Shown here in pieces: positions 24,485 to 33,425 of a stretch of DNA of 33,662 nt. Below the pieces are notes generated by a model. That model did no database searches. It saw only the letters and a list, made by a program, of their open reading frames with translations, and was not told the DNA's origin. Position 1 is the first letter of the stretch; each line of letters starts with the position of its first letter. The DNA is from Planctomycetales bacterium 4484_113 (lineage in GTDB: Bacteria; 4484-113): assembly GCA_002050035.1 (NCBI GenBank), contig MVCR01000014.1, positions 1 to 33,662 of the forward strand. The letters are read 5' to 3'. A program made the position numbers and the translations under genes.

Positions 24485-25561
24485 TCAGCGCAGTGCCGAC
24501 CGAGAAGATTCCGCCTCTGCGAGCGCCGCAGCCTCCGCTTTGAGCTGCATGAGATTCTGGTAGTCGATAACCCTCCACAGCCCTTCCGCAACGAGGCTGC
24601 CGGGCTGCTCGCCATAGACGCGGAAGTAGAAGAACTTGTGATTGCTCATAATAAGCGCGACGTCGGCTTCAATGTGCTCCTTGGAAAAAAGAGGAAAGCC
24701 TCTGCCGCGTGGCGGATTCCACTCATTCTCAGCGGAATCCGTGCCCTCCGCCGCGTTCGCCTGTTGCCTTTGCTGACGCTTCTTCGCCACTTCAACCAGG
24801 CGAGAGCGTACGGCATTGGCGATCCGCTCCAGCGCATCCGGCGCCATGATCTGCCGGATGTATCCGTTGCCCGCACTGAAGGACGGATGCCACGGCTCGA
24901 AGAAGCGCCCGCTCACCGGACTGGCGAAGCGCGGCAGCCAGTTGTGCTCCAGCATGCGACGGAATCGCTCACGGTCCCGCTCGCACTCCAGCCACAGGTT
25001 CGTCAGCTCCTGCCGGTCACTCGTATGCCAGAGCCGCTTGAGCGCTTCCGGTCCATCCACGAAATCCAGACCGGCGATGTTCATTCGCGCGATAATGGTC
25101 TGCCAGCAGGTGAACTCAAGTCCCGGGTCGGCGGTCCAATCCATCCATAACAGCAGCCGCTCCTTCCGACTCAACCGGTCAAACGGAACCAGGTCTTCAG
25201 TCAGCTTCCATCCTTCCACTTCGCCTATCTGACGGAAGATATCCGGGTAGTCCCCCCGCTGCCACACCGCCTTCACATGCTCACAGGGAGAGCGCCCGGT
25301 CTTCTGCTCGTAATCCATAAGTGCATGAATTTCCTGCTCCGGCAGTGAAAGCTCTGGCAGCAGCTCGGCGAAAACCTCCATCGCCTCTTGAGCATCTTCA
25401 GCACTCGGCCGAACCAGTGCCGCCGGTGTCGCCGAACTCTTGCCATCGGAAGCCGCCTTCATATCTCGGTCAATGCACCCGCCGAGACCAACCGCCAGTA
25501 ACGTCATCACGATGCTGGCAACCAGCCCTCTCCACAAGCTACACCAACGCCACCCGCGCAC
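24485..25561 (-). CDS. Lipoprotein with one copy of an unassigned module (ASPVS...FEP..GY...YYFR.YGE...AEGL)
   Basis: Signal/lipobox LLAVGLGGC; FASPVSGRFFEPWHPSFSAGNGYIRQI...FFYFRVYGEQPGSLVAEGL, paralogous to the next gene. Confidence 0.75.
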   Translation of the reverse strand: MRGWRWCSLWRGLVASIVMTLLAVGLGGCIDRDMKAASDGKSSATPAALVRPSAEDAQEAMEVFAELLPELSLPEQEIHALMDYEQKTGRSPCEHVKAVWQRGDYPDIFRQIGEVEGWKLTEDLVPFDRLSRKERLLLWMDWTADPGLEFTCWQTIIARMNIAGLDFVDGPEALKRLWHTSDRQELTNLWLECERDRERFRRMLEHNWLPRFASPVSGRFFEPWHPSFSAGNGYIRQIMAPDALERIANAVRSRLVEVAKKRQQRQQANAAEGTDSAENEWNPPRGRGFPLFSKEHIEADVALIMSNHKFFYFRVYGEQPGSLVAEGLWRVIDYQNLMQLKAEAAALAEAESSRSALR

Positions 25562-25567
25562 GCTTTC

Positions 25568-25576
25568 ATTCTACCA
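25568..25576 (-). promoter_or_regulatory. Extended -10 (TGG-TAGAAT), 6 nt before GTG of the lipoprotein
   Basis: Minus strand: tggTAGAATgaaagcGTGCGC. Confidence 0.6.
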
Positions 25577-25624
25577 GAGCAGGAAACAAGAGTCGTTTCG
25601 CACCAAGAAAAGCTGGCTTTCCCG

Positions 25625-27535
25625 CTATGGAATCAATCTCAGCCCTTCCGCGAGAATCCTGTCCTCACCATAAAGTCGGAAGTAATAGACCGCTTCTGGC
25701 GTATATCCTGCCGCTTTCGCCACACGCGCCAGCTCCTTCTCATCGGTTATCTTCGCGAAATACCCCTCCCACGGCTCGAAGTCGCGGAAGATCGGCAGCA
25801 TCAGCTCGCTGCTGACAGGCGCGGCATATGGCGGCGGCACCTCCAGCCGCAGATACCTTCTGAACTCCGGCGTCTTCAGAGTCCCCCACTTCAGAAGCAT
25901 CTCGCGAAGCTGCTCCGGCGTGAACGCCACCCGCAGCCACTGCTCCATAGAGTCGATTCGCTCAATGCCCAGCCCCATAAACCACGAAAGCGCCGAATCC
26001 TCGCCGCTGAGAAGCCCGACGATGGTCGCCTTATCGTATGCGGCGAGTTCGGAAAGCGGTTGAAGCGGGTCGCGCAGAGGAAGCCCCTCCACTGTGTCCA
26101 GCGCACCCATCGGTAGGTCGCCCCTGCGCAGCCTCTCAACTTCAGTATCGCTGAAGTGCGCTCCCGAAACTGAGTATTTCGCCGTCACCGGATAGAACGC
26201 CAGCGCCTCCTCCCGCAGCAGAATCTCCGCCACTTCCTGGTCGCTCCTTGCGGCTAGCCACTCCTCGTAGTTGGCCATCCGCGCCTTTAGCCGCTCTCGT
26301 CGCTCCTTCCAGCGGGTGCGGTATTTCGGGTCTTTGCCCTGGTAGGTCAGCGGCGCGGGTGGCCAGCTATTGCGCCATCTGGGCAGCAACCCTTCGGCGA
26401 TGACCGAGCCTTCTTTCTCACCATAGAGTCGGAAGTAATACCAGGAAACATCGGACAAATCCCAAATGTGTCCCGGCTCTGCGGGAACGAATCGCCCATA
26501 CGTCCATGAGCGTAGCAGGACCATCCCGGCTTGCTCCACCGCCTGATTTATCGCCGCGACCGCCTCCGGCTCGGTGATTCGACGCACGTAACCGTCTCCC
26601 CGCGAGTATGTGGGATGATCCGGCTCGAACACGCGGCGACTCACCGGACTCGCGTAGCGCGTTAGATGATTCCGGGCGAACCAGCGCTCGTATTCCGCAC
26701 GAGTGAATGCGCTTTCGGCAAGGATGGCATCGCCGCCTAGCCCACCCTCGTTCTTCAGGCACTCCAAAGCGCTCACTTCCCTGAGCTTGCGGCGTTGCAG
26801 CACCCAAATCGTCGCTTCAATTGGACCCCAGATATAGTTATCTCCGGTCTGACCTCCCAGGTAGTTCTGATAGGGGAAGTACGGCCAGAGCAGCGCACGC
26901 TCCGCCGGCGTTAGCTCATCAATCGGCTTCACCGGCGAGTCAAGCGGCAAGCCTTCAACCTCGGTCAGTATCCCCCGAATCGGCTTCCACCCATACTGCC
27001 TCCACGAAAGCGAGAACTGCCGGTCCGCTTCCACCTCTTCCTCCGTCAAAAATGCCCCGCTCCAGGACTTCGCAGAGCCGGCAATCTTCGTTTCCTCAGC
27101 CATCACATCAGCGACGTTGCGATACTGCACGGCGAACTCCTCCGGGAGCTCCATCGCCATCAGGCGATTGATGTACTTCTGCTCAATCCGTGCTTCGAAT
27201 ATGTCTTCGATTAGCGGGATGAACTTCTCCTCCCAGACCTCCTGCCAGCTTTGCGAGGAGTGACCGGTAACCGTCAGCAAGCCCCGCCCCAGCTCGAAGC
27301 CGAGCATTCGCACCTCACCTTCTCTCGGCAGTGGAAGCAACAGAGCGACGATGACCAGCACTCCAAAGCCAAGAACCAGCCGCCTGCGGAGTCCTCGCCT
27401 GCGACTCCATCGCCCGCAAACTTCTCCAGCTCTGTCGAGCGTCATTTCGGCGGTGTTCAGCGTCGCGCTCCCACTATAAGAGATCCGCATGCGGTCCAGC
27501 GCGGCATCCACCAGTTGCCCGTTCTCACGCTTCAT
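25625..27535 (-). CDS. Single-pass membrane protein with two copies of the same unassigned module; candidate partner or anti-sigma of the ECF factor
   Basis: About 50 aa cytoplasmic tail, TM LVLGFGVLVIVALLLPL, then YASPVSRRVFEPDHPTYSRGDGYVRRI...YYFRLYGEKEGSVIAEGL and YAAPVSSELMLPIFRDFEPWEGYFAKI...YYFRLYGEDRILAEGL. Start overlaps the end of the sigma gene. Confidence 0.75.
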   Translation of the reverse strand: MKRENGQLVDAALDRMRISYSGSATLNTAEMTLDRAGEVCGRWSRRRGLRRRLVLGFGVLVIVALLLPLPREGEVRMLGFELGRGLLTVTGHSSQSWQEVWEEKFIPLIEDIFEARIEQKYINRLMAMELPEEFAVQYRNVADVMAEETKIAGSAKSWSGAFLTEEEVEADRQFSLSWRQYGWKPIRGILTEVEGLPLDSPVKPIDELTPAERALLWPYFPYQNYLGGQTGDNYIWGPIEATIWVLQRRKLREVSALECLKNEGGLGGDAILAESAFTRAEYERWFARNHLTRYASPVSRRVFEPDHPTYSRGDGYVRRITEPEAVAAINQAVEQAGMVLLRSWTYGRFVPAEPGHIWDLSDVSWYYFRLYGEKEGSVIAEGLLPRWRNSWPPAPLTYQGKDPKYRTRWKERRERLKARMANYEEWLAARSDQEVAEILLREEALAFYPVTAKYSVSGAHFSDTEVERLRRGDLPMGALDTVEGLPLRDPLQPLSELAAYDKATIVGLLSGEDSALSWFMGLGIERIDSMEQWLRVAFTPEQLREMLLKWGTLKTPEFRRYLRLEVPPPYAAPVSSELMLPIFRDFEPWEGYFAKITDEKELARVAKAAGYTPEAVYYFRLYGEDRILAEGLRLIP

Positions 27536-28049
27536 CGTCTTTCACCTCGCGTTCAGTCTCGGCGCGCAGGAGCTTCGCCAGCCGTCGCCGCGCCCGCACC
27601 AGCCGCATCTTCACCGCACCGACTCTCGCCCGCACGATCCGCGCCGTCTCGCGCACGCTGAAGCCCTCCAGCTCGTGGAGCATCAGTGCCTCGCGCTCTG
27701 CTCGCGGAAGCGCCGCCAGCATGCCGGCAAGCCATGCCTCATCAGAAGGGCTCATCATCCGCGTATCACTTGCGGGAACGTCGCCGGCGACACTCAAAGG
27801 CTCCACCTTTCGCAGCCGGTAGCGCCGCCACGCGCTCCGATAGCGATTCCGCATAATGGCGAAGAGCCAGGGACCGAACCTCTCTTGGTTACGCAGATGG
27901 CGGAATTTCTCAAGAGCCATCGCCACGCTTTCCGCCAGCAGTTCCTCACCGGCATCCTCGGCACCCGCGAGATAGCGGGCGAAGCGGCTGGCACGTGCGT
28001 GCACATCTCGGTAGAGCGTCATAAAGTCAGCCCGCGACTCGTCGCTCAC
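27525..28049 (-). CDS. ECF-type RNA polymerase sigma factor
   Basis: LYRDVHARASRFARYLAGAEDAGEELLAESVAMALEKF...RFGPWLFAIMRNRYRSAWRRYR (region 2); LPRAEREALMLHELEGFSVRETARIVRARVGAVKMRLVRARRRL (region 4). Confidence 0.92.
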   Translation of the reverse strand: MSDESRADFMTLYRDVHARASRFARYLAGAEDAGEELLAESVAMALEKFRHLRNQERFGPWLFAIMRNRYRSAWRRYRLRKVEPLSVAGDVPASDTRMMSPSDEAWLAGMLAALPRAEREALMLHELEGFSVRETARIVRARVGAVKMRLVRARRRLAKLLRAETEREVKDDEA

Positions 28050-31289: not shown

Positions 31290-33425
31290 CTATTCCGTAA
31301 CCGTTATATCGAATTCCGCCAGATCGTCAAACAGGTTGTGCGCACCGCCGGTGGTGGAGGTGTAGTAGGTCGCGTCAATCGGGTCGCCGCCCTCGGTCTC
31401 CGAGTACTGGCTGATAAAGCGCACGTGGGCGGTTCCCGCGGAAACACCGACGAACTTGAAGTTGAAGACGTAGCCCGCACCACCGGCGTCAAAGGCATAG
31501 GTGCCGCCGTCGGGCAGAGCCCTTGCCTCAATGTACTTGCGGCCCGCAGGCACGTGCACGCCGTCCACCCAGTAGTCGGCATCGAAGGGACCGAAGGTGC
31601 TGTACTGGTCAGGCGTCGGCAGTATCTTCATATTCGCGGTGTCGAACAGCGCCCAGAAGTCATCCGCCGCATCCGGCGCGTCACCCCACAAACCAACGTT
31701 GTAGCTCGCAGTCGGGTCGATATCAAGCTTGTCATCGAACTCGATGCGAACCGACGGGAACTCCCGAACGTCTGCCGCCGAGTTGAAAAAGTACACTATC
31801 GCCCGAAGCTCCTCGCCGACTTTCACACTGTCGCCCACCACAGTCATGTTGATGGAGTTGTCGGCGCCGTGCTGCCCCTGCGCCATCACAGGAGAGGAAG
31901 CATCACCTTTCACTGGGGGATTCACTCCGTCATCCACCACGCATGAGGGCACCGCGCCGCCAGGCACATCCATCAGTATCCAGTTGTAAAGCTTCGAAAT
32001 CTGCGTGTACTGAGTCGTCGGCGCAACATCCGTGGGCACTAGTTCCCAGTATGGATTCGACATCATGAACCCGAAGTGGAACTCCAGGGGGTCACCATCA
32101 ATATCGTCGGCCACCGCGGTAACGGTGTCACCGGACACAGTGACTTCCACCGTTGGCGGATGATTCACCGAGCTGATATGCAGGGTGAAGGGGTAGCTGT
32201 CGCTGCCAGCAGCATTGGTCGCCGTGAGCGAAGCCGGGTAGTCAGTCGCGGTCTCTGACAGGGTCACCGTAACATCAGGCATATCCGTCTGCGGGGTGTT
32301 GGGGTTAGCACCCCCGCCGAAGTCCCAGTCGTAGGTGATGGGTTCATCACCGGTTACCGTGGCAGTGAATTTCATCTCTTGACCGGGAGAACCGCTGGTT
32401 GGCGAGACACTCGTAATCTCCGGCGCCACGCCTAGATGGATGACCTCATAGTGGAAGTCAAACGTGTCCTCCCCAATAGCATTGGTAGCGGTGACTGAGC
32501 CATCGTATTCACCCGCACTTCCCAGGGTCACCGAGACATAGGGCAGCTCCGTATCGGCTGTGGCAGGAGTCGCGCCGTCTCCCATCTCCCAGTGGAACGC
32601 CATCGGCTGGCTGCCGGTCACGGTTGCGACGAAATCAACCTCATCGCCTTCGTTGCCCGAATCCGGAGTCACGCCCGTGATTTCCGGCGGCGTGGCCGAA
32701 GCCTGCACCACATTGGACTCCGCACCTTCGTTGTCCTGCCCGTCAATAACCACCACCTTGAAGGCGTGATTCGTTGAGGCGTCCACCGAGTACTCAAACG
32801 ACAATTGTCCCCCGTCCTCAACCGCATCTGCCAGGGCAACCGTATCGAGAAGGTCAAAGGTCTCCGTCGGGCTGGTCGCTCCCTTGACGCGGTAGCCGGC
32901 GCAATCCACATTGAAGTTCGCCGCCAGCGGGGTCAGATCCATGATGTTGATCGTCCCGTCTCCGTTGCCGTCAATCGCCGCATACTCGGGATGCTCCGTC
33001 GTTGACTCGTTGAAATGCGCCGCCAGGGGCGTAAGGTCCATGATGTTAACAATCCCATCCAGGTTGTAGTCGCCGGTACTGCGATACTGCCATCTTAGGG
33101 TGAAGTAAGTTCCCGCACTCGGCGTAGCCGTAAGAGTAGGCGCGTCATCAGGCGGCTCCGAAACCAGTTTGCTTACGCCCCGTGCCCTCAGCTCGCCTGC
33201 GAGCGCATCTTTCAATCCCTGAAACACCGCCGCATCCACTCCCGGCGGCGGCGCGAGCTCATCAAGCTCCGCCAGTTGTTCCGCAACGGAAGAAGACACC
33301 TGCACAGACGGCGTGGACGGGCTCCTCCGCCTGCCGCAGGCAACCAGCAGTACACCAGCCAGGATGATAATCAAGACAATCGCCAGAGGAACCATTCCCC
33401 GGCGCCAGTTATGAATAAATCCCAT
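31290..33425 (-). CDS. Lipoprotein with N-terminal dockerin-like EF-hand pair, PKD domains and possible cohesin-like C-terminus; paralogue of 140..2773
   Basis: Lipobox VLLVAC; GDYNLDGIVNIMDLTPLAAHFNE, IDGNGDGTINIMDLTPLAANFN; PKD repeats EITGVTPDSGNEGDEVDFVATVTG..., EITSVSPTSGSPGQEMKFTATVTGDEPITYDWDFGGGANPNTP; SD GGAGG. Confidence 0.85.
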   Translation of the reverse strand: MGFIHNWRRGMVPLAIVLIIILAGVLLVACGRRRSPSTPSVQVSSSVAEQLAELDELAPPPGVDAAVFQGLKDALAGELRARGVSKLVSEPPDDAPTLTATPSAGTYFTLRWQYRSTGDYNLDGIVNIMDLTPLAAHFNESTTEHPEYAAIDGNGDGTINIMDLTPLAANFNVDCAGYRVKGATSPTETFDLLDTVALADAVEDGGQLSFEYSVDASTNHAFKVVVIDGQDNEGAESNVVQASATPPEITGVTPDSGNEGDEVDFVATVTGSQPMAFHWEMGDGATPATADTELPYVSVTLGSAGEYDGSVTATNAIGEDTFDFHYEVIHLGVAPEITSVSPTSGSPGQEMKFTATVTGDEPITYDWDFGGGANPNTPQTDMPDVTVTLSETATDYPASLTATNAAGSDSYPFTLHISSVNHPPTVEVTVSGDTVTAVADDIDGDPLEFHFGFMMSNPYWELVPTDVAPTTQYTQISKLYNWILMDVPGGAVPSCVVDDGVNPPVKGDASSPVMAQGQHGADNSINMTVVGDSVKVGEELRAIVYFFNSAADVREFPSVRIEFDDKLDIDPTASYNVGLWGDAPDAADDFWALFDTANMKILPTPDQYSTFGPFDADYWVDGVHVPAGRKYIEARALPDGGTYAFDAGGAGYVFNFKFVGVSAGTAHVRFISQYSETEGGDPIDATYYTSTTGGAHNLFDDLAEFDITVTE

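Follow-up and report, generated by a model that had tools for sequence, protein, structure and literature searches.

A 33,662-nucleotide stretch of DNA from Planctomycetales bacterium 4484_113 (the window) codes for an ECF sigma factor, a single-pass membrane protein and a lipoprotein. We read the first two, at a probability of roughly 55%, as a sigma/membrane anti-sigma pair, probably co-transcribed, whose sensor would be formed by two copies of an orphan domain, with a lipoprotein homologous to this sensor encoded downstream. By profile, PDB and Foldseek searches the module is a previously undescribed envelope protein domain.

An ECF sigma factor and its candidate membrane partner

The sigma factor gene (27525-28049, minus strand; GTG start) codes for a protein of 174 aa with matches over the Pfam cut-offs to Sigma70_r2 (25 bits, cut-off 24) and Sigma70_r4_2 (47.8 bits, cut-off 25.7), and over the NCBIfam cut-off for the sigma70-ECF superfamily (55.6 bits). 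Its size and content are those of ECF-type sigma-70 factors, which comprise sigma-70 regions 2 and 4 only in ~170-200 aa. The start of the downstream gene (25625-27535, minus strand; 636 aa) overlaps the end of the sigma ORF by 11 nt, an arrangement expected of anti-sigma genes, which adjoin or overlap that of their ECF factor; a Shine-Dalgarno-like GAGGTG stands ahead of its ATG. The encoded candidate anti-sigma factor begins with a charged tail of ~51-52 residues (27383-27535, minus strand), the candidate sigma-binding segment, followed by a single TM segment (27329-27382, minus strand) that starts at about residue 53 and reaches a hydropathy of 3.19 over 15 residues. The motif RRRGLRRR precedes this segment, and by the positive-inside rule points to an N-in/C-out topology. 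The gene overlap, the ECF identity of the upstream ORF and the single TM segment with a short cytoplasmic tail had all been recorded in the first-pass annotation, and are upheld here. After a gap of 63 nt on the same strand comes the lipoprotein gene (24485-25561, minus strand), with a GTG start and no clear ribosome-binding site ahead of it, whose product combines a signal sequence and LGGC lipobox with one module. Elsewhere in the window (31290-33425, minus strand), a lipoprotein-like protein carries dockerin type I and PKD domains, both over the Pfam cut-offs.

In many cases an anti-sigma factor is encoded together with its ECF factor, and in the class II factor CnrY two helices wrap the cognate ECF (PMC7406223). 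The locus resembles such ECF/membrane anti-sigma pairs (CnrH-CnrY of class II; RpoE-RseA and RskA of class I) in its layout: an ECF gene, then a gene overlapping it whose N-in product has one TM segment, a short tail in the cytoplasm and a large portion outside the cell membrane. It differs from them in that no anti-sigma domain of Pfam matches the TM protein, whose tail is a candidate for sigma binding, and in that the putative sensor consists of two copies of an undescribed domain, with a lipoprotein containing the same domain encoded next. We propose that the N-terminal tail might hold the sigma factor like a short class II-like anti-sigma domain, that the two extracytoplasmic modules would sense a change, perhaps via contact with the homologous lipoprotein, and that the sigma factor, presumably co-transcribed with its partner, would then be released by proteolysis or a conformational change.

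A lineage-restricted domain of the cell envelope

The three module copies are related far above chance: BLASTP aligns the lipoprotein with copy 1 of the TM protein at E = 3e-20 (30% identity over 246 columns), copy 1 with copy 2 at E = 9e-10, and the lipoprotein with copy 2 at E = 7e-6. A profile of the family recovers the lipoprotein module at 24545-25264 (E = 1.0e-56), copy 1 at 26363-27001 (E = 5.3e-52) and copy 2 at about 25637-26131 (E = 7.1e-36), all on the minus strand, and the bounds assigned to the three copies in the first-pass annotation lie close to these. The three motif blocks by which it had characterized the module are likewise all present, with the correction that copy 2 reads TVEG in place of [EV]VEG. 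The module spans ~165-240 aa, with near-invariant residues at E105, G202, R285 and G288 (lipoprotein numbering).

That the domain had not been described before, as already suggested from the sequence, agrees with all the database searches: no family of Pfam (37 members searched) or NCBIfam (28 members searched) matches the module family, none of four module proteins has a match among the PHROGs, and sequence searches of the PDB with the module found nothing. AlphaFold2 predicts its fold confidently, both for the lipoprotein module (37 sequences; mean pLDDT 87.2, pTM 0.83) and for a distant single-module member (pLDDT 86.7, pTM 0.84). The lipoprotein model consists of helices and three core strands near GYIRQ, FFYFRVYG and SLVAEGLWRV. 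Foldseek searches, which covered the PDB with both models and BFVD with the lipoprotein model, returned no match below E ~1.

With the TM protein as sole query, further copies are found in its own genome and in two genomes of the same family. A 14-member profile extends the family to nine of the ten genomes of the class, and a 25-member profile to all ten (1-8 matches each) with none in 375 other genomes. A 28-member profile, run on two additional sets of 386 genomes that share members with each other and with the first set, gave a single marginal match from outside the class (G381, E = 3e-4). This protein (L149:1267-1962, on G381:C300) is exported and contains two YYxxTGxLPxSxxEL...NPxT...PG repeats. 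A search of genome contigs with a single protein recovered nothing; with a three-sequence alignment it recovered three loci, all in the two same-family genomes, and a tblastn search of plasmids for the module was empty. None of the genomes in the first list of relatives is labelled as belonging to the same phylum, and hence the class may represent the whole phylum among the genomes searched. Most members have a single module with a signal or anchor sequence, and several a lipobox; the family is a lineage-restricted one of paralogous, exported proteins. One two-module protein (L018:10800-13136, on G001:C26) shows sub-threshold CarboxypepD_reg/MG4-like matches between its modules, at residues 329-375.

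Linkage of the module and of the sigma factor in related genomes

The first-pass annotation had tied its proposal of a sigma/anti-sigma/lipoprotein sensing system to a module-ECF linkage shared with relatives. We compared the coordinates of all sigma region 4 matches in the ten genomes with those of the module matches, and module and sigma genes lie side by side at the window locus only: none of the ~35 other module loci, a few of which lie at contig ends, has an adjacent sigma gene. The nearest other case (G003:C52) has a sigma gene 2.7 kb from a module, with other genes between. What stands of that proposal is the membrane anti-sigma architecture of the TM protein; that the module defines such a system finds no support, and its ECF linkage is not conserved. 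In one same-family genome (G001) the same clpX locus lacks a sigma gene and holds a pair of two-module proteins. The closest relatives of the lipoprotein, found in both G001 and G002, are encoded after a BioY-like gene in a sigma-less BioY/HD-hydrolase-like neighborhood (gene names assigned by eye). The closest homolog of copy 2 (38% identical) belongs to a G002 gene cut off by the end of contig C48, where flanking linkage is out of view. As the sigma pairing is seen in this genome only, the module is better regarded as a general envelope part than as a sigma-factor component.

The sigma factor itself is conserved within the family, with three relatives in the two same-family genomes, namely a tandem pair in G001 (49 and 52% identity) and one in G002 (51%). 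Downstream of each, and overlapping it, lies a gene whose product is a single-TM protein of 649-656 aa with a 46-aa tail. The ectodomains of these partners are related to one another; neither hmmsearch nor hhalign detects any similarity between them and the module, and internal duplication in the partners is not significant; a relative of this ectodomain is also found in a tail-less form with no sigma gene (G001:C6). Similarity between the window tail and the 46-aa tails is not significant (shuffle P 0.20 to 0.54), nor is any between the regions upstream of the sigma genes of the window and of G001, which were compared for a conserved promoter. The two tandem units of ECF sigma factor and 650-aa TM partner in G001 (L042:7578-12669, on G001:C26) have a near-identical stretch of >50 bp ahead of each sigma gene.

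These neighborhoods bear on whether the sigma and module genes of the window are coupled at all. Ordinary members of the envelope family might already have resided at the clpX locus and an ECF gene been inserted beside them, with no functional coupling; indeed, the sigma-less module proteins at that locus in G001 raise the possibility that the modules were in place before the sigma gene. The isolation of the window case among the module loci fits this account, and with several module genes per genome chance is a possible cause: for the ~5 ECF and 6 module genes of this genome we estimate chance adjacency at the order of a few percent. Against it, the two genes overlap by 11 nt, and the ~52 aa charged tail is confined to the sigma-adjacent member. 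It alone among the ~35 module proteins has such a tail, with no Met just before the hydrophobic segment; some others have earlier in-frame starts, yet also a Met close to that segment. Moreover, this gene arrangement recurs in the relatives of the sigma factor, there with different tailed TM proteins. Accidental adjacency is in our view rather unlikely, but stays a serious rival to a sigma/anti-sigma pair because the module-ECF linkage is seen once only. For the lipoprotein alone, a place outside the sensor, either as one of the products of an operon under sigma control or as a neighbor transcribed on its own, is somewhat less than an even prospect and compatible with the sigma/anti-sigma pair: its nearest relatives dwell in a different, sigma-less neighborhood, and the 63-nt gap and poorly marked GTG start point the same way, whereas the shortness of that gap and the strand and domain it has in common with the TM protein argue for a joint role.

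A further question concerns the origin of the domain and leaves the sigma link untouched. The module might be a type IV pilin-like globular domain that has diverged and lost the prepilin helix. Its distant members loosely follow the order of features of type IV pilins and T2SS (GspG-like) pseudopilins (helix, P-turn, NPxTG, PGxxY, strand pair), with a helix ending in YYxxxGxxPxSxxEL followed by NPxTGxP, SPGDxYI and YYxRxYG, and the model likewise runs from helix through loop to strands. However, hhalign gives no significant similarity to pilins from these genomes, the Foldseek search of the PDB, pilins included, gave nothing below E ~1 with either model, and the members seen bear signal or anchor sequences instead of a prepilin start. 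Membership in the type IV pilins or pseudopilins proper fails on these same counts, and even a more distant pilin ancestry appears improbable. Matches to the prepilin N-terminus number 5 to 19 in each of the class genomes (G000-G009); many of them lie in proteins 300-400 aa long, and several are arranged in tandem.

Possible recruitment of extracytoplasmic sensors

Returning to the sigma/anti-sigma pair, the best reading of the gene architecture is that the sensor half of the candidate anti-sigma factor would have been recruited from the orphan module family. Given that the ectodomain relative on G001:C6 also lacks both tail and sigma gene, both ectodomain families look as though they were recruited onto sigma-linked tails. 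It is conceivable, if doubtful, that the ECF sigma factors of this lineage swap whole sensors, whereby the tail and TM segment are kept and the ectodomain is exchanged among unrelated orphan envelope families, one of them lineage-specific and with a fold absent from the PDB.

The module occurs in all searched genomes of a single uncultured class of bacteria and is nearly absent elsewhere, which makes it a lineage marker, and its confidently predicted fold without a PDB match makes it a good target for structure determination. The comparison of the sigma factors offers a testable example of a single ECF clade with different extracytoplasmic sensors, and such pairing would bear on the question of how existing sigma factors become connected to new stimuli.
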